Shown here piece by piece: positions 4,432 to 62,419 of a stretch of DNA of 64,000 bases. Positions within the stretch are counted from its first letter, which is position 1; the number at the start of each line of letters is the position of its first letter. Both the position numbers and the translations under genes were made by a program. The stretch spans positions 186,001 to 250,000 of the forward strand of contig JASWJB010000022.1 in assembly GCA_032433595.1 (NCBI GenBank), in the 5' to 3' direction. The notes beneath the pieces were generated by a model. The model was not told the DNA's origin. It saw only the letters and a program-made list of their open reading frames with translations, and ran no database searches. This stretch comes from Conoideocrella luteorostrata (Eukaryota; Ascomycota; Sordariomycetes; Hypocreales; Clavicipitaceae).

Positions 4432-5467
4432 TGTCGTTCGCGGAACTGCAGACTGTCGTCACTGTACTTCCGGCAATCAATTCTGCAACAAGGAGGTTGG
4501 TCAACAGTGATGTTGCGGAATCTGGAGGTTCAGTTAATGCAAGTCTGTGGATTCCCTCAGCACAGCCATTCGCTGCTGCCTAAAATACAGGCTTAGTAAT
4601 GGCCGATGGCTTCAGTTGACCTGTCAGATGAATGAAAATTGATACAGGCTGTACTAGACTCGCGCCGACAACGGCACGCCCTTGAACCACCAAGCTGCAC
4701 GTGATTTTGACGGCGACCGAAGTGGCGTCTGGAACAAAGAATAAATGAGAAGATAAAAAATAGGTATGCCTGTTGATGCGCAGACTAAACATGCCGCTGA
4801 CCCACGCACGGCTGGCGTTGATACCCCCCGTTGAAGGATCTGGGCCGCTGTTGACGCCCGCTAGACTCTATCGAGTATGTCCCCCAATGCTTTTGTCCCT
4901 TTTGAAGCCTGTAGTCTCCGATTCCCCGATTAGGAAATCTGTTGCGCCCGTGGCACATCATGGCCGTTCTCCAACATTCACATTGTCGCGCGGATACCAC
5001 AAGAGTGCGACGCGAAGTACGTCGAAGAGTTTATTATAACTGCTGTGATGGAGGATAGAGATCGTGAATTCCACGATCGCCTTTGACTGCACGGTATTTG
5101 AGACTATAGTGGTGTGTCTTTATATACAGAAAATATGCCCGAAACTATTTAGCGTCCTGTGAATCTTAGCAAGGAGCCTCAACACTAGGAATGAAGTACG
5201 TTTTAGCTGCGACCCTCAACAATAAGACTTTCAGCGCAGTATCCAGTCAAAAAAAAGGGGTATTTCAAGAGATCTCGGCGATAATGTTGGGAGTAGTTGT
5301 GACATTCCGGACTTAAGTGGAATAACCGGAGATAGCATGTAGCCTGTCGGAGCGCTACCGTTTTCCCTTCAACTATATATCCAGGGTACCTGCAGAATTA
5401 CGCGTCTCGTGCAAAACAAGATTCAACGCAATTTGATGAGTAAGGAGATATATACAACCTACGTAAC
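4432..5467. promoter_or_regulatory. divergent intergenic region (DUF3632 / NmrA-like)
   Basis: This is a 1.0-kb region between divergently transcribed genes and should hold both promoters. An AT-rich stretch with TATATAT at about 5375 lies roughly 90 bp before the NmrA-like ATG. I see no coding frame with family resemblance. Confidence 0.4.
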
Positions 5468-27584: not shown

Positions 27585-30260
27585 TTAACCATCGTGTGGT
27601 GGGCGGAAATCTTCATATTCAAAGGTGGACCAATTCACAACATCTGTTACCTTTTTCCGGAGCTGCGCGAAGTGTTCCTTCATCTTCTCTACTTCTTCCT
27701 TAAGTAGACTATTTGCAGCCTCATCATATTGGGTCTCGAGGACGGTATCTGTAAGTCCAAGGATCATGCTTAAGAGAAGTCCTTCTTTTGGATGTTTGGG
27801 CACAGGAGGAATGATCGGATTGACAAGAGACGCAGGAGGTTGGTCACTTAAAATATAAGGAATGCCTCTTTCTTGTCTCTCTATTTCCGCTGCCGCAAGT
27901 TTTGCATCCTCGTAAAGTTTTCCACACTTTATAGCAATGAGAATTTGGAGTCCTTGACGTACTTCCTTTCCGCCCGGGAAGACTTCGGTAAGCTCTTCTT
28001 CCTTAAGCTGACCTTGGATTACTCTGACGACCTCAATTGCGTGTCGTATAGCAAGCATATCCGTAAGTGCGTCTGACAAGTCCACCCCTGATTCCTCTTG
28101 CACCTCCCTTTTTATGTAATCCCGCCCAGAGAGAAGCAATTCAATATTGTCAATGTGCGCTAATCCTTTTGATTGGCCGACAATAAATGCAGTATCTAAG
28201 AGCCGCGGCATTGCCACAGGAACAGTCTTCAGATATTCTCCTACTGCAACTAGATGTGTGCGAGCAACCCCATAAGGGTCTTTCTCGATTAGCGCCTCGA
28301 TCCCGGCTGTTACGAACGTAAGAACCACTTTTTGAAGAAATTGCTTCCACTTTGGGTCTGAATATGCTTCGACGTTTTTTTGACTTGTGAACCGTTTTAC
28401 GAATTCCTCGTTAAAGGTTTCGCCCACCTTCCTTAGCGAGAGGGCGGTACCGCTGGTAAAATTGGCAGGGATATCGATCAGAAGCAGACGCTGCCTGTGT
28501 ATAGCACTGCCCGATGAAGCATTTCTCATCTTTTCAATAGCTTCCCGGCATCCAGTTTCAAACTTTGCCCGATCCAGCTTCGCGTCGGGCTCAAGTGTCT
28601 CGCTACTTGCATTTAGCGCCCCAATTCCCTGTGCGGCATTAGATATAACGCCCACAGCGCTGACTGCTAGAGTATTGTTTAACTTGAAGGCAAAGTCTTG
28701 ATGTGGATTGTGATAACTATGCGAATATATGTACCTGAACACTTTTTCGTGAAGGAACCGGGTCCAAACGTCATCGCGCGCCCGAAGCCCTTCTTCCTTG
28801 GTTGGTGGATTGGGAGGAGGAGTGAAAAGTTGGACCGCAAGTCGAGCTAAATGAACCAGTAAGCCTAGAGGAAGGAATCCGCCTAGGATCAAGGCATCAC
28901 CAATAAAACACAAGGCAGAGTCCATTGCAATAAGAGCAGTGTCCTCCTTGTGTTCTAATGCAGCTGCTATACTAACAGAACATCCCACAAAGGGGATAAT
29001 AGCTGTAATTGCCGCGGCCCGGTCCAAGGCAGTTGAGTTTGTTATAAAGGCGTGGACAACTCCGCCTACCCATAAAGCATTTCCGATTTCTCCACCTATG
29101 CCGCTTCCAGGACGCAGTTTCGGCGATGTAGGCTTGAGCGGGGTATACTTGAGAATCTTTGTTCGAATGTCTGAGAGCGACTTCACTCCCTTCGCTTCCC
29201 ACTCCCATGGTATTTTATTGAACTTGTGTCTCGTTGCAAGCTCCGAAAATTCTTTTTCTGACACCTTCTCAGCCTTCCTGGCTGCCTCAATCTGCTTAGG
29301 GGTCGCCGAGCCGTTCTCCTCGGGCAAGACTGGTACATTAATACAACCCCCATTCGTCCGCTTGCAATGCACGGATGGCTGGCCGCCGTTCTTATTTGGT
29401 GATGGTACATAGAAGGTGCTGCCCCCGACAGGGTATTTTATGTTAAACTGCAGTGGGTTATTCCTAGCCAGTCCAACTGCTTTGCCATTCTTATCAGCAA
29501 AGTTTAGACCACTTTCCTTAATATCTGCACCCTTGTGTTTGCTCCATGGTTCATTCTTCCACGCTTCGTGTCCATCGGGGAACCCTGCCAGCTCGTAATT
29601 TGGTCCACCTGCCTTCAAGTTGTTGTACTTTGGCTTATTATAATCATCATTGGCTATTTTCTTTCGGTCTTTCTTGCCTGTGTCCCTGCCATCAGCCAGT
29701 TTAGTGTAGCTAACGACCTGGTCCCATTTAATGCCTCCGGTTGCTAAGAACTCTCTCTCGGACTTGTGCAAGAGATATGGTTCCCCCGTAGAAGTAGTCT
29801 TACTCCCTCCAAGAGTAGTAAAGGTATCGATGAAATTTGGCGTCGCATGTATTTCGTATAGATAAGCGACCCGTCCGGGAGAAGCAAATATTTCTGCTCC
29901 TTGTGGTCGGAGTGAGGTAGAAACATAGGGTGATGAACCCCCACCCAGGGAACTGTGTGAGTGCTCATAAATGCTAAATTTAGCATTTGACAGATCCGCT
30001 TGTCGAGGTGGAAATCCGCCTTGCTCCTTGGCTATGTTAGGAGGCATCGCATCGACACGATAGACACGGGATGGCTCTGTGGGGAGTCCGCGTTTTTGAA
30101 TGGCTTTAGTGGCGAAGCTGTAATTAGTCTTGTTTGCGCCATCTGCAATTGATTTAAGAATGGTGTTGCTATTGGGTGCTGCATCTTTGCCTGTATTTGC
30201 AGATATTCTTTCTGCAATGATATGACCTGCAAATAGGACAAGGAATTTGGAAGGCTTCAT
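27585..30260 (-). CDS. secreted heat-labile-enterotoxin A-like ADP-ribosyltransferase
   Basis: This is an uninterrupted 891-residue frame from ATG 30260. A hydrophobic N-terminus (about residues 1-20) fits a signal peptide. Residues ~63-180 carry the ADP-ribosyltransferase signature of the cholera/LT-A group: Arg in VYRVD (R68), a Ser-Thr-Ser motif at 114-116, and a Glu-x-Glu pair (E168/E170) in SEREF. These are the NAD-binding and catalytic positions. The middle holds two or three long hydrophobic helices, and the C-terminal half is helical and charged without a recognised domain. Secreted proteins of this family are expanded in insect- and plant-associated Hypocreales and modify host proteins; the host target here is unknown. 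It lies in a TE-rich compartment. Confidence 0.85.
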   Translation of the reverse strand: MKPSKFLVLFAGHIIAERISANTGKDAAPNSNTILKSIADGANKTNYSFATKAIQKRGLPTEPSRVYRVDAMPPNIAKEQGGFPPRQADLSNAKFSIYEHSHSSLGGGSSPYVSTSLRPQGAEIFASPGRVAYLYEIHATPNFIDTFTTLGGSKTTSTGEPYLLHKSEREFLATGGIKWDQVVSYTKLADGRDTGKKDRKKIANDDYNKPKYNNLKAGGPNYELAGFPDGHEAWKNEPWSKHKGADIKESGLNFADKNGKAVGLARNNPLQFNIKYPVGGSTFYVPSPNKNGGQPSVHCKRTNGGCINVPVLPEENGSATPKQIEAARKAEKVSEKEFSELATRHKFNKIPWEWEAKGVKSLSDIRTKILKYTPLKPTSPKLRPGSGIGGEIGNALWVGGVVHAFITNSTALDRAAAITAIIPFVGCSVSIAAALEHKEDTALIAMDSALCFIGDALILGGFLPLGLLVHLARLAVQLFTPPPNPPTKEEGLRARDDVWTRFLHEKVFRYIYSHSYHNPHQDFAFKLNNTLAVSAVGVISNAAQGIGALNASSETLEPDAKLDRAKFETGCREAIEKMRNASSGSAIHRQRLLLIDIPANFTSGTALSLRKVGETFNEEFVKRFTSQKNVEAYSDPKWKQFLQKVVLTFVTAGIEALIEKDPYGVARTHLVAVGEYLKTVPVAMPRLLDTAFIVGQSKGLAHIDNIELLLSGRDYIKREVQEESGVDLSDALTDMLAIRHAIEVVRVIQGQLKEEELTEVFPGGKEVRQGLQILIAIKCGKLYEDAKLAAAEIERQERGIPYILSDQPPASLVNPIIPPVPKHPKEGLLLSMILGLTDTVLETQYDEAANSLLKEEVEKMKEHFAQLRKKVTDVVNWSTFEYEDFRPPHDG

Positions 30261-31908
30261 AATTTGTGAGGTTGTGCCTGTACGATCCTAAGCCATAGAC
30301 CATGTGGATAAGATAAAGAAGAAAGTCTTCAGCTATTGATTGATTGGGCAGTTTTGAGCAGTTAATGGACATCGGTAAGCGTAGACGGAGCTGGGACGTT
30401 TTATATTCTGGGAACAAGGCCTGAATCGTGCGCCGTGGCATAACGCCACTCCATTACCATGCGTATTGTGCACCACATAAATCTTAATTTTACTACATCA
30501 TCCCACATCTCTAGATACCTATTTGCCGTATGACAACTAAATTTAATTTATGGGTTACAATGCCAAAGTTGTGAGTCATGAGGCCATCGCTATATCCGTA
30601 CCAAGTCAGTTTCACATTGCAGTTTGAGGTTTTTGTTCATGCCGTTGCTAGCAATTTAAAGTTTAGACCCACAGCGTTGATTGAAGGACTATCATTACAT
30701 TAATGTGGTAATGCAAGCCGGATTATTGACTCATACGAAGACCCGGGCTAAGTGGGCCACGTGGCAAAGCGGACGTATTGCGTCTGTAGGCTAAAGTGTC
30801 GAGCCACGGTAAACGTTCCTGACTACCCCATGTTTAGATATATAACCTGTCTCGATGCCGCGGCCTGAAGCTCCATTTCAGCTTGTTGTCCGCTTACGTC
30901 CAACTTTACAAATTCTTTCACGGGGGTAACAGTGCGCCTATTCTCTCTCACATATATTACCATAGATCTCAAAAATACCGGGAAAGCCTTTAAATTTACA
31001 ATGGTTCGATTTTTGATTGTTGTCCTGGCCAGTAAGCAACACATCCTAGAAATTCTCTGACGCGCAATTTGACGCGGGCTGGCTAATGTAGAACTTGCCG
31101 AGCAGTCGCCACATCCTGCATGGCGCTCTCTGCCAGCAAAAATATGCCTGGACATGAACACACAATCTCCCGAGACTTCAGCAAACGCAAAGAGGCACAG
31201 GTTGGCAGTACGGAGGACCCTGCGGATACCAAGCGGAAGTTGATACAGGAGGCCCGAGAGGCTGCTATGCAGATTGAAAAGATGCTTGCTCAAATGTTAG
31301 GTAACACGACTAACAAGCCTGATGCCAAGGGCTAACTTAAGACTAGTTGGCTATAGTAGGTCTTTAAAAATTTCGTGCTCTCATATCATCCAGTCTCAGC
31401 TAGGTTGTAGTGCATCTGTGCCGTAGTTTAAATTGCGTACGGGAAATTTTTGCTAGACTTAGTTAAACACTAGACTACCCCCCGCTTTAGCCTATTACAA
31501 TAACTATGACTTGCTGGAAAGGAAATAGGAACCTTTGAGAGACTCTGCATATATAATGAAATAAAATACACTATGGACTTTTACTATCCCAGCCCAGCCA
31601 GATAGAATAGCGCAAGCGTAGTCTCCGTAATTTACTGCAACAAACTTATATGAAATAAGATCACCTCTCCGCGTCTAATTGCTAGTGTGTGGGTGGAAGA
31701 AGACCTCCGAAGCAAGAAGGATGATTGCAGGTGAAATTTTGGATTGACCGAATTGGTCACACTAAGGTATAAGAACGGTTTTAGCTTGCTAGATCAGATA
31801 GATCAACAAGTTTGTCCTATTGTATTGAATTCGACTCTTTGTTTGGAGCTTTGCTCCTGTGTTCTTGTGATCAATTTTCCATCCCGACGTGCCAGGAAGA
31901 GCGATAAC
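30261..31908. other. upstream region of the enterotoxin-type gene and a possible small gene
   Basis: Mostly AT-rich and gene-free. A + strand frame at 31120-31335 is listed separately. A 156-codon minus frame (31293-30823) largely overlaps it on the other strand and is unsupported. Confidence 0.35.
31120..31335 (+). CDS. possible small helical protein, 71 residues
   Basis: An ATG-initiated frame encodes a hydrophilic, probably alpha-helical protein with an amphipathic segment (KRKLIQEAREAAMQIEKMLAQ) and no signal peptide or membrane helix. Its amino-acid composition looks protein-like despite the AT-rich surroundings. I recognise no family. It could be a chance frame or a fragment of a longer spliced gene. 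Confidence 0.3.
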   Translation: MALSASKNMPGHEHTISRDFSKRKEAQVGSTEDPADTKRKLIQEAREAAMQIEKMLAQMLGNTTNKPDAKG

Positions 31909-54733: not shown

Positions 54734-55567
54734 TTAATTTCCTCGAATGAATGAAGGAATGAACAAGGTCTCGTCCTCCACCACGTGCTTATCCCAGTCT
54801 CCATCCAGATCATCCACGTCTTCTAATACAACTTGGACAATATCGTCTTCGCCGTCTTCCTCGTCTCTCATCCTCTCCATCGTTGGCCACTGTCGAACAT
54901 CCGACAGCCGAGATTTGTCGATGTGCTTGCTCGAGAGCCAAGCGTGCCGTATCTTACGGTACTCTATCGCGCAGACCTGTTCCCCCGGGGCTACAAAATA
55001 TGACTGTTCTCCATCCAGCCCCTGCCGTTGAAAGTCTACGCTCGGATCGACAATGCCCCCGAGAGGCGCGACGGCTCCGACGGCGGCCGATGACAAGCTG
55101 ACGGGAACTTGGACATGACCGCCGGCTCTCTTCCCAGCCATCGATTCCTGGCGTATGCTGGCGTCCGTGATTGTGTGAAAGCCGACGATTAAGAAGATAC
55201 TGTGACCCTGGTCGATTGCTTGCTCGATCCAGGAGCGGGTGGCTGGTAGGCGTGTTGCTTTGTCAAACCAGGCTTCGGAGTTGTCAAGAGTGTACGTCTT
55301 GAAATGGTTTGTCGCCACGCAAACTTTCATCTTGGTGCCTTTGGAGAAACTTGAAGACAATAGAGAGGTGAGAGCCGAACGGATGCCGGCGGCAGAGGCA
55401 GCATGATGCTCGCCGGTGTATGCAGAGCGGGCAGTTGCCAACGTGGTAGGCTCTAACTGAGGATCATGATGATGCTGATGGGGGTACTCGACGTTGGTAA
55501 TGAACCGGCCCAGCTTGACGGAGCTCTGCGGTAGAAGGATCTGCGACGGGACAATGCTGAACCTCAT
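54734..55567 (-). CDS. gasdermin-like pore-forming cell-death protein
   Basis: This is an intronless 277-residue protein, the usual size of fungal gasdermin-like proteins (HET-Q1/RCD-1 type). Features seen: an early VKLGRFITNVEYP segment, a central IFLIVGFHTITDASI strand-turn-strand, a Gly/Ser/Val-rich amphipathic middle (VPVSLSSAAVGAVAP), and YFVAPGEQVCAIEYRKIRH near residue 200. An acidic C-terminal tail of ~40 residues (EEDGEDD..., DVDDLDGDWD) could be the autoinhibitory end removed by proteolysis. In the family, cleavage near the C-terminus releases an N-terminal domain that permeabilises the plasma membrane. The gene is divergent from a TPR-CHAT protease gene 362 bp away, the arrangement expected for such a pair. 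Identification rests on motif pattern and context. Confidence 0.75.
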   Translation of the reverse strand: MRFSIVPSQILLPQSSVKLGRFITNVEYPHQHHHDPQLEPTTLATARSAYTGEHHAASAAGIRSALTSLLSSSFSKGTKMKVCVATNHFKTYTLDNSEAWFDKATRLPATRSWIEQAIDQGHSIFLIVGFHTITDASIRQESMAGKRAGGHVQVPVSLSSAAVGAVAPLGGIVDPSVDFQRQGLDGEQSYFVAPGEQVCAIEYRKIRHAWLSSKHIDKSRLSDVRQWPTMERMRDEEDGEDDIVQVVLEDVDDLDGDWDKHVVEDETLFIPSFIRGN

Positions 55568-55929
55568 TTTGCGCCGCTGCTTGACAGAATCCTATTCTCG
55601 TTGCTGGGGTTGCGGCTTGGAGGCATTAAATACTAGTACTCCCGTGTGTTTGTTTATTAGCCACGCGCCAACGGGGGCGAAGGCGGGGGCGCAGGCCGCT
55701 GCTTCCGAGCGATTCTATTGGAAGAGGCATCGGCCGGCCTGAGCCGTCCCTCCGATCATAGCCGTGTGGCGCAACTCGGGGGGGGCTCAACCCCCCCCCC
55801 CCCCCCCCGGAGCATGCGGCAAGCGACGACCACATCTTGTGCATAAAGAAGACCACCACACCGACTTAAAGATAATCACGACGAATCCACTCTGGGGTTA
55901 GGTCAAGCGCTTATTTTCCATCTCTCGTA
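55568..55929. promoter_or_regulatory. shared promoter of gasdermin-like and TPR-CHAT genes, with G8/C18 tract
   Basis: A 362-bp divergent intergenic region suggests co-expression of the two genes. It contains a run of eight G (55778-55785), CTCAA, then eighteen C (55791-55808), which can pair as a hairpin and is prone to length change. AT-rich TTAAATACT near 55626 may serve the minus-strand gene. Confidence 0.6.
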
Positions 55930-58900
55930 ATGAATAACCAGCAGTATTTGCAGCAGCTGAGAGCTGACGCCGATCATGTGCCAGACACGCCTGACGCCAT
56001 CCCCCTCCCTATCCGAGCGTACGATACGTTTAAACAATCTGGAAACCGTGGACATATTGACGAGGCAGTAGAGCTCGCTAGACAGAGCATCAAAATTCAC
56101 ATAGGCGATGCCCAGTCGTCATTTAGCCCGCTAAACCAGCTTAGGATCATGCTTGAGGAACGGTATCAGTCAGCGGGCGAAATAGCCGACCTTGAGGAAG
56201 CAATCACAGTGACGAGGCAGTTGAACAGCATGACGCCATCTGATCATCCTAACTTGCCAGTTAGATTAATTAACCTCGCCTTTAAGCTCAGCCAACTGTA
56301 TGAGAAGACAGGCGAAATAGCTGACCTGGAGGAAGCAATTTTGTTCCTCAGGCAAGCAGTCGACATATCGCCAGTTGATGGTCACCTGGTGGTTGGTTTA
56401 AATCTCCTAGGACGCCAGCTAAGTCGCCGGTTTAAGCGAATAGGCGAAATATCCGACCTAGAGGAAGTAATTAGAGTGGCGAGGCACGAAGTTGACTTGA
56501 CGCCACTCGATGATCATCTACACCAAGTAGCTGGTTTAAGGTTCCTGGGAAACCAACTGAGTCGCCTGTATAAGCAAACAGGCGAGATATCCGACTTGGA
56601 GGAAGCAATTATAGTGGCTAGGCAGGAGCTTGACTTGATGCAAGCAGACCATGTCAACCGGGCAGGCAGGTTAAAAAATCTAGGAGACTGGCTTGAGAGC
56701 AAGTATGAGCGCACCAATAACATATCCAACCTGGAGGAAGCAATATTAGTGGTCAAGCAGGCTGTTGACCTGACGCCGTGCAACCATCCTGGCCGAGCAA
56801 GCAGGTTGATTAACCTCGGAAATAAGCTTGATCGCCAATATAAGCATACAGGCGATGTTGATGACGCTGAGGAAACAGTTTTAGTGTTCAGGCAGGTAGT
56901 CGACTCAACGCCGATAGATGATCCTAGCCGGGCAACCGGGTTATATAATCTGGGAAAGCAGCTGAACAGCCGATATATGAAGACGGGCGAGATAGTTGAC
57001 CTTGAGGAAGCAATTATAGTAGCCAGGCAAGCAATCGATTTAACGCCAAAAGATCATCCTAAACGGGCAGGCAGGTTGGACAACCTAGGAAACCAGCTTG
57101 AGGACCACTATCATCATACAGGAAGGATGGCCGACCTTGAGGAAGCAATTGGTATGGCTAGGCAAGCGGTCAGTTTAACGCCAGCTAATCATCCTGACCA
57201 AGCAAACCGATTAAATAACCTTGGAACTATGCTTGGGGTCCAATATGAGCGGAAAAGAAATATAGCTGACTTGAAGGAAGCAATTTCGGTGGTTAGACAG
57301 GCAGTCAGCTTGACGCCGGCAGATCATCCTGACCAGGCAAGTTGGTTAAATAATCTTGGAAGCCAGCTGTCCAGGCGATATGAGCAGACAGGCAAGCTAC
57401 CCGATCTGGAGGAAGCAATTACAGTAACCAGACAGGCAGTCAACTTAACGCCAGCCGACCATCCTGACCGGGCAGCTCGACTACATAATCTCGGACACAA
57501 ACTTCATTTGTGGCCTGCGCGGAGAAGCGAGGAAAACGGCCTCAAGGAACTCATAGAGGCAGTCAACACAATGTCGGCTGACGATCCTAACCGGGCAGTC
57601 TGCTTAACCAATCTCGGAAACCAGCTTACCGGCTGGTATGGCCAAATGACTGACTTGGAAGAAGCTTGCGCATATTACCTCGCCGCCTGGAGCTGTCAAA
57701 ATGCCACCCCTTTGGAGCGAGTCGAGGCTGCTGCACGGTGTCTCCCGCAGCTCGCCAAACAGTCCAAGATTGACCATGCCATCCAGCTTGGCCTAGCTGT
57801 CCTCGACCTGCTGCCGGCCGTCAACACAAAGCTCCTCGACTACAGCGACCAGCAGTTCGTCATGTCGACATTTGCTGGCGTTGCTTCCAATGTCTGTGCC
57901 TATCTGCTCAAGGCAGGTCGACGTTCGAAAGCCTTGAAGAGTCTTGAAAGAGGGCATGCAGTCATTCTCGGCCAGCTCGTGGACGGTCGGGATGATCTGT
58001 CGTCCTTGCGACTCCATCACCACGATATCGCTGGGCGATATGACCGACTCCGAGACGAGATCAATGAACCGGCAGGCGACCCCGAGCTATGCAAGGACCG
58101 CACAAAATCAGCGAATCGGAGGCGGGAAGCGGTGGCTGAGCTCGACGCGTGCGCTCGGGAGATTCGAGGCATCGCAGGCTATGAGCGGTTCCTGCTTGGC
58201 CAGACGGACACTGACATGCAGGCTTGTGCCATGCAGGGCACCATCGTTGTTATCAACGTCACCGAATATCGCTCTGATGCGATATTCGTGTCCCAAGTCG
58301 CCATCAGCACCATCAATCTGCCGCGGCTGCTTGCCGCGGACGCAAAAGCTTGGCTTGGCCAGCAATGGACAGGGCGCGGAGTGAGAAGGGGAGAGCGGGT
58401 GCAGAAGAACAAGGATTACCTCGATTATCTTGCCTGGCTATGGGATGTGTGTGTCCAGCCGGTTCTAGAGGCAGTCGACAGAGAAGACCACAGGTCAGCA
58501 GACGTGCTGCCGCGGATATGGTGGATGGGGACGGGGCTTGGCCACTCGATGCCGTTTCATGCTGCCGGGGTGCACACTGCGGGTTCTACGCAGAATGCAC
58601 CAAACAAGGTTGTCTCGTCATACACACCGTCAATTAAAACCCTTGCTTATTCCCATCGCCGGGCAAGCATCGCAAAGGACACGGAGGGCTCGCTCCTGAT
58701 CGCCACGATGCCAACCACGCCGGAGGCCGACGCCTCGGACCCGGATGCAGGCATATTGGGTGATATTTCTGGCGTCATGAGTGAGGAGAAACTGCTGAAA
58801 GAGCTGGTGGCAGGCAACATGCGTGTAGAGTCACTAAATCTACCGAGCGTGAGCCAAGTGATTGACAAGCTGCGAGACTGCTCCATCGCACATTTTGCCT

Positions 58901-59346
58901 GCCACGGTACGACGGACCACGTAGATCCATCCAACAGCGGCCTGATCTTACAGAGACAAGATGATCAAGGGCTGCGGCGGGACCGGCTAACGGTGCACCA
59001 GGTGTCGAAGCTACGCCTGGACAACGCTCACATCGCGTATCTATCGGCATGCTCGACGGCGGAGAACAGGGTGAAGCGGCTGTCGGACGAAGTACTCCAC
59101 GTTGTCAGCGGGTTCCAGGTAGCTGGGTTCCCACACGTAGTGGGATGCTTATGGCCTTCGAATGACAGGATTTGCGTCGAGGTGGCAGGCAAGTTTTACA
59201 GGACCTTGTTCGAGCATTCGAGTGAGGCGACTGGATGGGAGGGGCGGGACGTGGCGAATGCTGTGCGGAAGGCGGTGATGGCGGTGCGAGAGACGGCCTT
59301 GAATGCGCCGTTGCTTTGGGCGCAATTCGTGCACTTTGGAGCGTAA
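55930..59346 (+). CDS. TPR-repeat protein with C-terminal CHAT (caspase-like) protease domain
   Basis: This is an intronless 1138-residue protein. After ~60 residues come about eleven TPR-type repeats of ~44 residues (consensus DLEEAI-x-VARQAVDLTP-x-DHP-x-RA...NLG-x-QL-x-x-RY-x-x-TGEI), covering roughly residues 60-590. A helical linker with KALKSLERGHAVIL follows, then the CHAT domain (about 840-1138). Catalytic residues are H992 in HFACHG and C1041 in YLSACST; the downstream GFQVAGFPHVVGCLWP is also typical. CHAT proteases are clan CD cysteine peptidases related to caspases and separase. The repeats would sense a ligand or partner and activate proteolysis. Divergent pairing with the gasdermin-like gene indicates its likely substrate. 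Confidence 0.92.
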   Translation: MNNQQYLQQLRADADHVPDTPDAIPLPIRAYDTFKQSGNRGHIDEAVELARQSIKIHIGDAQSSFSPLNQLRIMLEERYQSAGEIADLEEAITVTRQLNSMTPSDHPNLPVRLINLAFKLSQLYEKTGEIADLEEAILFLRQAVDISPVDGHLVVGLNLLGRQLSRRFKRIGEISDLEEVIRVARHEVDLTPLDDHLHQVAGLRFLGNQLSRLYKQTGEISDLEEAIIVARQELDLMQADHVNRAGRLKNLGDWLESKYERTNNISNLEEAILVVKQAVDLTPCNHPGRASRLINLGNKLDRQYKHTGDVDDAEETVLVFRQVVDSTPIDDPSRATGLYNLGKQLNSRYMKTGEIVDLEEAIIVARQAIDLTPKDHPKRAGRLDNLGNQLEDHYHHTGRMADLEEAIGMARQAVSLTPANHPDQANRLNNLGTMLGVQYERKRNIADLKEAISVVRQAVSLTPADHPDQASWLNNLGSQLSRRYEQTGKLPDLEEAITVTRQAVNLTPADHPDRAARLHNLGHKLHLWPARRSEENGLKELIEAVNTMSADDPNRAVCLTNLGNQLTGWYGQMTDLEEACAYYLAAWSCQNATPLERVEAAARCLPQLAKQSKIDHAIQLGLAVLDLLPAVNTKLLDYSDQQFVMSTFAGVASNVCAYLLKAGRRSKALKSLERGHAVILGQLVDGRDDLSSLRLHHHDIAGRYDRLRDEINEPAGDPELCKDRTKSANRRREAVAELDACAREIRGIAGYERFLLGQTDTDMQACAMQGTIVVINVTEYRSDAIFVSQVAISTINLPRLLAADAKAWLGQQWTGRGVRRGERVQKNKDYLDYLAWLWDVCVQPVLEAVDREDHRSADVLPRIWWMGTGLGHSMPFHAAGVHTAGSTQNAPNKVVSSYTPSIKTLAYSHRRASIAKDTEGSLLIATMPTTPEADASDPDAGILGDISGVMSEEKLLKELVAGNMRVESLNLPSVSQVIDKLRDCSIAHFACHGTTDHVDPSNSGLILQRQDDQGLRRDRLTVHQVSKLRLDNAHIAYLSACSTAENRVKRLSDEVLHVVSGFQVAGFPHVVGCLWPSNDRICVEVAGKFYRTLFEHSSEATGWEGRDVANAVRKAVMAVRETALNAPLLWAQFVHFGA

Positions 59347-60622: not shown

Positions 60623-61021
60623 ATGCCTAGTTATACTGAAAATAACCTAGAAAACGCGGTATCTGACGTTGCAAGTGGCGCATCTATCCGGAAAGCTGCA
60701 GCACTCTGGGGTATACCAAGAACAACGCTTCAAGATCGAATTAAAGGTGCACAAGCAAGGGCAGATGCACATAAACATCAACAACGTCTTTCTCAAAAGG
60801 AGGAAGAAAGCCTTGTTCAGTGGATTCAAGCCCAGGTATCATTGAATGTGCCTATTACACATCAACAGCTCCGCAGCTTTGTCTCACACATTCTGGTCAA
60901 GGGAGGAGACCTTGAACCTATCGGAAAAAATTGGGTTACAGGCTTCTTAAGGCGTCACCCGGAAATATCAACAAAGAAAGGCAAGGGAATAGATTCCTGC
61001 CGTATTAATGGCGCCTCTTAA
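60623..61021 (+). pseudogene. pogo transposase, N-terminal DNA-binding part
   Basis: This encodes 132 residues with a psq-type HTH (IRKAAALWGIPRTTLQDRI) followed by a CENP-B-like HTH (LVQWIQAQVSLNVPIT, then NWVTGFLRRHP). It ends in a premature stop just before the catalytic domain. Downstream to 61378, the remnants YNMD and FLGTRKYE are seen in shifting frames with stops. Confidence 0.85.
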
Positions 61022-61378
61022 AGACCTTCTTTGTACTGCTCGAGCCAGAGGCTATAAGGCTAATTCCAGGTACAACATGGACAAGTGGGTGTTCAAGAGG
61101 GCCAGGGCAGTAATGGCCTAGTTCTTAGGCACTCGCAAATACGAATTATTATCAGAAAACACCCTAGAGGGCGATTTTAGACTACAATTATCGAGTGTAT
61201 TAGCGCAGATGGCAGGGTTATTAGCCCGCTAGTTATTTTCAAGGGAGAAAGCGTACAACAGCAATAGTTCCCTGATAATACGGATTAATATCGCAAGTAG
61301 CACTTTACGGCATCACTAAATGGCTGGTCCTCTAATAAAATTAGGTTAGCTTGGCTACAAGAGATCTTTATCCCGGAG

Positions 61379-61676
61379 TGTCACAGGAAACACACTCACA
61401 TCACCGAAAACGCACGATGCTGCCGGAAACGTTCAACATTACCGGAAGCATTCAATATCATCAGAAACGTACGATGCCGACGGAAGCGCATCGCTGGAAG
61501 CATTCAACATCGCCGGAAACGGACGATATCGTCAGAATCAATGGAATGAAATGAATCCAGAAGAAGAGGCATATAGCAGAGATAAATAGTTGTCAAATTC
61601 CCCGTCAATTAGATAGAATAAAGGACAATTTTCCACTGCCTTGGAGACCGACTTCCATAGCTGCTCACTTGTGACA
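61379..61676 (+). mobile_element. solo LTR, family D, nested in the pogo element
   Basis: A 298-bp element from TGTCACAGG to CTTGTGACA has 7-bp inverted ends and the perfect 5-bp duplication CGGAG (61374-61378, 61677-61681). It contains an imperfect array of ~18-20 bp units of the type CGGAAACGTTCAACAT(C). A truncated relative lies at 25578-25660. The insertion postdates the pogo insertion. Confidence 0.82.
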
Positions 61677-61741
61677 CGGAGACTAAGTCAGCTAAGCAGT
61701 CAGAGCCACGGCTGCTAATCCTAGATGGCCACGGTAGTCAT

Positions 61742-62419
61742 ATGAATAACGACTTTATGCTAGAATACTTCAAAAATAATATATTCCTTCTTTTCTTACC
61801 AGAACATTCACCGCATGTGTTGCTGCCACTTGACGTTGGGGTATTTAGCCCGGTCAAGACTAGCTATCGCGCTTCAATTATGGCCCTTCAATTATCATCA
61901 AATTCAGCACGCGTAAATAAAATCCTCTTCCTTGAATACTATTACAATGCACGGTTAGCTAGAACCACCCAAAAAAATATCCTATCTGGGTGGAAAGCTT
62001 CGGGACTTTGGCCAGTCAATGTGACGAGACCTCTTCTATCCAAATTACGAGCATCCGCTAATAAGCCTCTTCAAGGAACGCCTCAAATCCCTGAAAAGCA
62101 GCAGGAAGACCTTCTTAAGACCCCTCAGCGCGGCAGTCATATTCAGCGACTAATTGGCCGAGTTAATCCTCCTAGTCAGATAGACCCAACAGCTCGTCAA
62201 TTATTTCGGAAGATCCGGAAGGGAATTGACGATAAAAATATCCAAGGACGCGCAGAGCAGGAAATCCGGGATCCAAGGCATCAAGTTGATGCCCAAAAAC
62301 TAAGGAAGAAGCAGAAGGCCGAACATAACCCTAATAAAAAATTCGCGAATATTGAAGATGTTGAAAAGGCTCGCCAGCGCCTTCCAGCGCAGATTGCAGC
62401 AGCAACCTACTCCTTTTGA
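61742..62419 (+). pseudogene. pogo transposase, C-terminal DDE part
   Basis: A 225-residue open segment begins NNDFMLEYFKNNIFLLFLPEHSPHVLLPLDVGVFSPVK, the second-Asp region and following helices of Fot1-type DDE transposases, then WKASGLWPVN and a basic C-terminus. It has no start of its own and is separated from the N-terminal part by stops, frameshifts and the nested LTR. Confidence 0.85.

Follow-up and report, generated by a model that had tools for sequence, protein, structure and literature searches.

Fungal gasdermin genes are commonly found in the neighbourhood of protease genes. In the parts of two reviews available to us, approximately 80% of them are reported to be clustered with proteases and 19% to lie near CHAT genes (PMC10197012), and about 17% of the gasdermin-clustered protease domains are cysteine proteases, CHAT included (PMC12881547). 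The closest described counterpart of the locus presented here is a cluster in Podospora anserina, where, as summarised in the second of these reviews, a TPR-bearing CHAT protease has been shown to activate a clustered gasdermin (PMC12881547, citing Clavé 2022). The same excerpt describes HET-Q1, which loses a C-terminal piece of ~5 kDa, likely by a cut at F238, through a genetically linked protease, and RCD-1, which is controlled by the co-expression of two alleles (PMC12881547). Activation by proteolytic loss of a C-terminal piece, which an earlier annotation of this DNA made from the letters alone (hereafter the first-pass annotation) had attributed to both proteins, therefore holds for HET-Q1 but not for RCD-1, while its statement that fungal gasdermin genes cluster with CHAT-type proteases agrees with the available text of both reviews (PMC12881547, PMC10197012). 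The portion of PMC11138114 available describes a gene for a CHAT protein of Aspergillus fumigatus as a heterokaryon-incompatibility gene.

The stretch of DNA analysed here, referred to as the window, comprises 64,000 nucleotides (contig C22, positions 186001-250000) of Conoideocrella luteorostrata, a scale-insect fungus of the Clavicipitaceae, in an assembly of 46.4 Mb and 620 contigs; the genome announcement, in its accessible part, gives 47.39 Mbp in 864 scaffolds (PMC12352038). The window contains a gasdermin gene and a TPR-CHAT protease gene arranged head-to-head. Judged by description in the accessible part of the review, the pair resembles the P. anserina cluster in having a TPR-CHAT gene beside a fungal gasdermin, in another organism (PMC12881547). 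With HET-Q1/HET-Q2 it shares a linked protease and a predicted C-terminal piece of ~5 kDa, but there the protease, HET-Q2, is a serine protease of subtilisin-like type and the genes are idiomorphs, whereas the partner here is a CHAT protein; RCD-1 of Neurospora crassa stands apart, being controlled by the meeting of two alleles without cleavage. The TPR-CHAT/gasdermin combination is already known in other fungi and the window pair is a well-supported further example, whose existence is unsurprising since cell-death modules of this class have already been described in fungi. The kind of module is familiar from P. anserina (PMC12881547). The first-pass annotation had suggested that the combination might be uncharacterised in its host, and the pair has probably not been studied in C. 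luteorostrata, the available text of the genome announcement being without the word 'gasdermin' (PMC12352038). The contribution here would be a predicted, testable cleavage site, and two points become directly testable: the position at which the CHAT protease cuts the gasdermin, and separase ExxR specificity in fungal TPR-CHATs.

We consider it probable (roughly 0.8, a figure for the module and not for the exact cleavage site) that together these genes make up a fungal module resembling pyroptosis and complete in itself. In it, the gasdermin would be made in an inactive form, in which a short acidic C-terminal piece restrains the pore-forming part. The TPR-CHAT protein would be sensor and protease in one, its TPR array detecting a trigger; the CHAT domain, once triggered, would become active and cut the gasdermin close to where the acidic piece begins, and the freed part would assemble as membrane pores and kill the compartment. 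Known members suggest that the role is presumably in defence or allorecognition. The interpretation as a module, put forward in the first-pass annotation, is supported; cutting of the gasdermin by the CHAT protease, the cut site, the trigger and the killing of the cell are what we infer in addition.

Gasdermin and TPR-CHAT genes in the window

The features of the locus are listed below by position in the window, with the basis of each assignment where one applies.

54734..55567, minus strand: gasdermin gene, 277 aa, single open frame (open reading frame and fold comparison); residues ~1-234 are the predicted pore-forming part and residues 235-277 the acidic C-terminal piece
54863..54877, minus strand: predicted cleavage site E-R-M-R / D, codons 231-235 (E231-R234, D235) (conserved motif, at which cutting is predicted)
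55568..55929, no strand: common intergenic region, presumed divergent promoters (sequence)
55930..59346, plus strand: TPR-CHAT protease gene, 1138 aa (open reading frame, Pfam, structure model)
56170..57700, plus strand: presumed sensor, an array of some 10 TPR-like units (each ~45 aa) and one more distant unit
58423..59343, plus strand: CHAT protease domain, residues 832-1137, in which H992 and C1041 are the candidate catalytic residues

The first-pass annotation had described a 277-residue gasdermin-like protein and an 1138-residue TPR-CHAT protein, 362 bp apart and head-to-head, with an intact H992/C1041 dyad; the two frames run without interruption through 277 and 1138 codons, respectively, and the domains are confirmed. 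Between the two start codons, the intergenic region contains a homopolymer tract at about 55778-55808 (8 G, CTCAA, 18 C), the length of which may vary. Transposase fragments of Tc5/pogo-like type (HTH_Tnp_Tc5, HTH_psq, DDE_1) lie at 60623-62419 on the plus strand, 1.3 kb past the CHAT stop. Elsewhere in the window, at 27588-30287 on the minus strand, a 900-aa open frame has a Pfam match to the heat-labile-enterotoxin-alpha-like family (ADP-ribosyltransferase; E 2.7e-23); the host is insect-pathogenic.

Sequence searches with the 277-residue protein gave no match among Pfam models even at E 1 and no match in a PDB search with the single sequence, and a PDB profile search returned RCD-1-1 alone at E 0.96; the assignment does not rely on these searches. 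Comparison of the predicted structure, run in full, found the gasdermin N-terminal fold, with RCD-1 as the best fold match, and on the strength of this model the assignment of the first gene as a fungal gasdermin, as annotated in the first pass, is confirmed. Pore formation and cell death would follow by analogy with known gasdermins. The alignment with the bacterial gasdermin 8sl0 extends as far as residue 252, so residues beyond 234 may be part of the core and the true cut may be further on; we take 8sl0 to be an active gasdermin oligomer and the strand ending at aligned residue 252 to be its last core strand. The C-terminal piece is short when compared with the large inhibitory domain of animal gasdermins, with 43 residues past R234 in a total of 277 aa, and has a net charge of -15.

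The larger protein is a TPR-CHAT protease by its sequence, with matches above the curated cut-offs for both CHAT (132 bits against a cut-off of 24) and TPR_10 (78.6 against 27.5), and its predicted catalytic dyad is intact. Amongst 32 aligned CHAT sequences, the Cys column is conserved in all 32 and the His column in 31, with one gap, and dyad motifs are present in 117 of the 120 CHAT matches listed (of 1605). The structure model covers residues 461-1138 with moderate confidence (mean pLDDT 69). It matches SAVED-CHAT at 2.5 A over 176 residues of the protease part, as well as the Craspase TPR-CHAT and human separase (7nj1, 363 residues at 5.9 A); the anti-sigma factor DdvA, however, heads its structure matches, and scores are similar for many proteins with plain TPRs. 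A non-exhaustive scan of 10 other open reading frames in the window detected no S8 (subtilisin-like) domain, and the partner of the gasdermin is the CHAT protein, which by analogy may cleave its neighbour. A crude motif count gives 9 TPR-like units in the window protein and 1 to 12 in linked relatives; such strong differences in unit number bear on what these sensors detect.

Recurrence of the pair in C. luteorostrata and other fungi

A second divergent gasdermin/TPR-CHAT pair is present in the same genome on another contig (C75, 150,959 bases), with the genes 756 bp apart. Its gasdermin is about 37-40% identical to the window gasdermin and its TPR-CHAT protein, with 4 TPR-like units by the same crude count, shows 51% identity to the window protein over 759 residues. 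The C75 CHAT gene carries a single in-frame stop inside conserved coding sequence (L012 4587-4589, minus strand), which the public gene model QQS21_004879 (P0239) bypasses by omitting 66 nt, with loss of conserved residues. We considered whether the stop might lie inside a true intron, a GTAAGT donor being present; since the omitted codons agree with the family consensus, a nonsense codon appears more likely from the sequence. A short N-terminal gasdermin fragment was also found on contig C139 (L013, about 4663-4812), with no CHAT gene on the 9.9 kb examined; a decayed copy of this kind fits a pattern of gene birth and death. At eight other CHAT loci (C18, C109, C26, C30, C193, C203, C422 and C529), an HMM scan over open frames, covering 6.6 kb at C529 and 9.9 kb at each of the others, detected no gasdermin of the window family nearby. 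Several of these loci (L014-L021) are adjoined by unannotated open frames that could be other effectors; of eight neighbouring non-CHAT frames compared with Pfam, seven have no match and one (L021) is CrcB-like.

Across other fungi, at least 20 of 131 gasdermin matches (window included) lie on a contig of the same size as a contig bearing one of the 120 CHAT matches listed of 1605, and since those listed are 120 of 1605, further pairs may exist. Linkage in foreign genomes is inferred here from matching contig sizes together with locus tags, which are neighbouring or near-neighbouring for HIM_10683/10684, HIM_06574/06575, PCL_09503-09506, V495_04960/04961, VTI74DRAFT_1766/1767 and CDD83_9434/9436, and the species agree between linked partners wherever they are named. 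Seven of the 20 matched pairs are on contigs of >500 kb, on which the partners might be widely separated, and 31 of 51 gasdermin matches on contigs of at least 6 kb are without a partner among the 120 CHAT matches listed of 1605. Partner distances correlate (r 0.727 over 20 pairs, a value reached in 0 of 20,000 permutations), as would also be expected from common species history; one P. lilacinum pair is off the trend, with gasdermins 75% identical and CHATs 53%. The window pair, the C75 pair and the same-sized-contig matches all place a protease gene with the gasdermin, and the partial check of related genomes (at least 20 of 131 matches co-located, plus the second pair on C75) bears out the first-pass annotation on this point, supporting, from sequence comparison, the view that gasdermin and CHAT genes recur together.

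A candidate cleavage site and its possible recognition

Separase cuts after the Arg of ExxR, preceded by [D/E/S]-hydrophobic, and also uses DxxR, according to the available parts of two papers (PMC6858450, PMC12609080). A [DE]xxR motif occurs at a fixed spot, four residues after the invariant W227, in 65 of 75 aligned gasdermins (64 of 74 when the window protein is left out), the next best column reaching 40 of 75; the fuller motif [DES]-hydrophobic-[DE]xxR is found in 38 of the 75 at the R234 site, the next best column having 8. R234 is present in 71 of the 75, while residues 230, 232 and 233 are variable. Among 30 sequences sharing less than 60% identity, 22 retain the motif and 26 the Arg; in this set R234 ranks only 40th of 277 columns, but first within 228-241 (0.87, compared with at most 0.70 elsewhere there). 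The site is not universal. With regard to the 20 contig-linked gasdermins, P0042 is truncated and was left out of the count; of the 19 spanning the region (window included; P0058 read by eye), 18 have the motif, the exception being CHAT-linked P0068, which has K in place of R and then R one residue on. By eye, the matching place in the C75 gasdermin reads E-G-D-R.

In the structure model the motif lies in a loop, 229-241, between W227 and D242. Block 231-240 has a pLDDT of 67 as against 83-92, making it the least confident from residue 221 on, bar the very end, and owing to this low confidence it is probably an exposed loop. A cut after R234 is predicted to release a piece of 43 aa, 4.93 kDa and pI 4.05, near the ~5 kDa lost by HET-Q1, from a part (1-234) of pI 9.3. 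Our best single guess, on the basis of motif conservation, is a cut after R234 in the separase-type sequence ERMR/D, to which we would assign somewhat less than an even chance. A CHAT cleavage site or ExxR in a fungal gasdermin was not found in print in a limited search that did not take in the P. anserina primary paper, and the literature searched yielded nothing on SAVED-CHAT and arginine.

The CHAT protein was also compared with separase for a possible Arg pocket. Human D2070, which touches the substrate Arg, is 41 residues past C2029, and the C+41 residue of the fungus's own separase is the last Asp of LWDVTDRDID. Alignment of the CHAT profile with this fungal separase is weak overall (probability 18.9%), with the HG motif, the catalytic Cys and LWDVTD/LWPSND aligning; in this weak, ungapped alignment the non-acidic V1083 sits opposite the Arg-contacting Asp. 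D1079 was considered as the counterpart of that Asp and rejected on recount, which aligns it with the earlier Asp of LWDVTD. The residue following V1083, E1084, is D or E in 99 of the 107 matchable sequences among the 120 CHAT matches listed (of 1605). It is located at C+43, the same offset as that of K670 from C627 in Craspase, where K670 stands in for the Arg-recognising Asp of separase (PMC9729208, in the part available). An acidic pocket residue in the window CHAT is possible on these sequence grounds. The window protein and Craspase (Csx29) have the TPR-CHAT architecture and fold in common, the latter from a model of moderate confidence, but Craspase is RNA-guided, cuts Csx30 at non-Arg sites and has K670 at the place of the separase Asp, as excerpts of two papers describe (PMC9729208, PMC11106740). 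Separase likewise resembles the window protein in the TPR/CHAT model fold, in the aligned HG and GCS-type motifs and in the ExxR-type motif of the presumed substrate; separase is, however, a cohesin protease, whereas the window CHAT is a proposed sensor protease beside a gasdermin, with V1083 at the Asp place. A broader proposition is that the CHAT-linked gasdermin clade is opened by cohesin's rule, with a separase-like cut after the Arg of [S][hydrophobic][D/E]xxR and the Arg held by an acidic CHAT residue (candidate E1084), which is lysine in CRISPR TPR-CHATs. We regard this as rather unlikely; if true, death-pore activation and chromosome separation would have one ancestral substrate rule in common.

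The exact site is the point on which an alternative weighs most. The module could operate as proposed with the CHAT protease docking on the gasdermin and cutting it at another point, of which the 251-257 loop (VDDLDGD) is one candidate. R234 would then be kept for a different purpose, lipid contact or retention of the acidic tail being examples, and we would put this close to an even chance. Such a reading is consistent with the extent of the 8sl0 alignment, with V1083 opposite the Arg-contacting Asp of separase, and with Craspase orthologues, which cut at non-conserved, non-Arg sites set by position (PMC11106740, in the part available); the acidic run adjoining [DE]xxR could, moreover, inflate the D/E counts through composition. 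Against it stand the probable exposure of block 231-240 and the prominence of R234 within it.

Two other readings question the module itself. The gasdermin might work by an RCD-1-like allelic, cleavage-independent mechanism, with the CHAT gene merely a linked neighbour. RCD-1 is the best fold match and is, in the review excerpt, not controlled by cleavage (PMC12881547), but the co-location with CHAT recurs in other fungi and twice in the C. luteorostrata genome, and the correlated partner divergence and the conserved loop motif also argue against this mechanism, which we consider improbable. More improbable still is a pair that has decayed or lost its function: decay is evident elsewhere in the genome, in the in-frame stop of the C75 CHAT gene and the C139 gasdermin fragment, but the window genes are open throughout their 277 and 1138 codons and the catalytic residues are in place. 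We retain as the probable reading a gasdermin module that its CHAT partner would control.

The loop that carries the candidate site also varies in length. Several of the divergent gasdermins (P0113, P0114, P0120 and similar sequences) have long insertions in it, and two named members of this divergent group are from the lichen fungi Cladonia and Stereocaulon.
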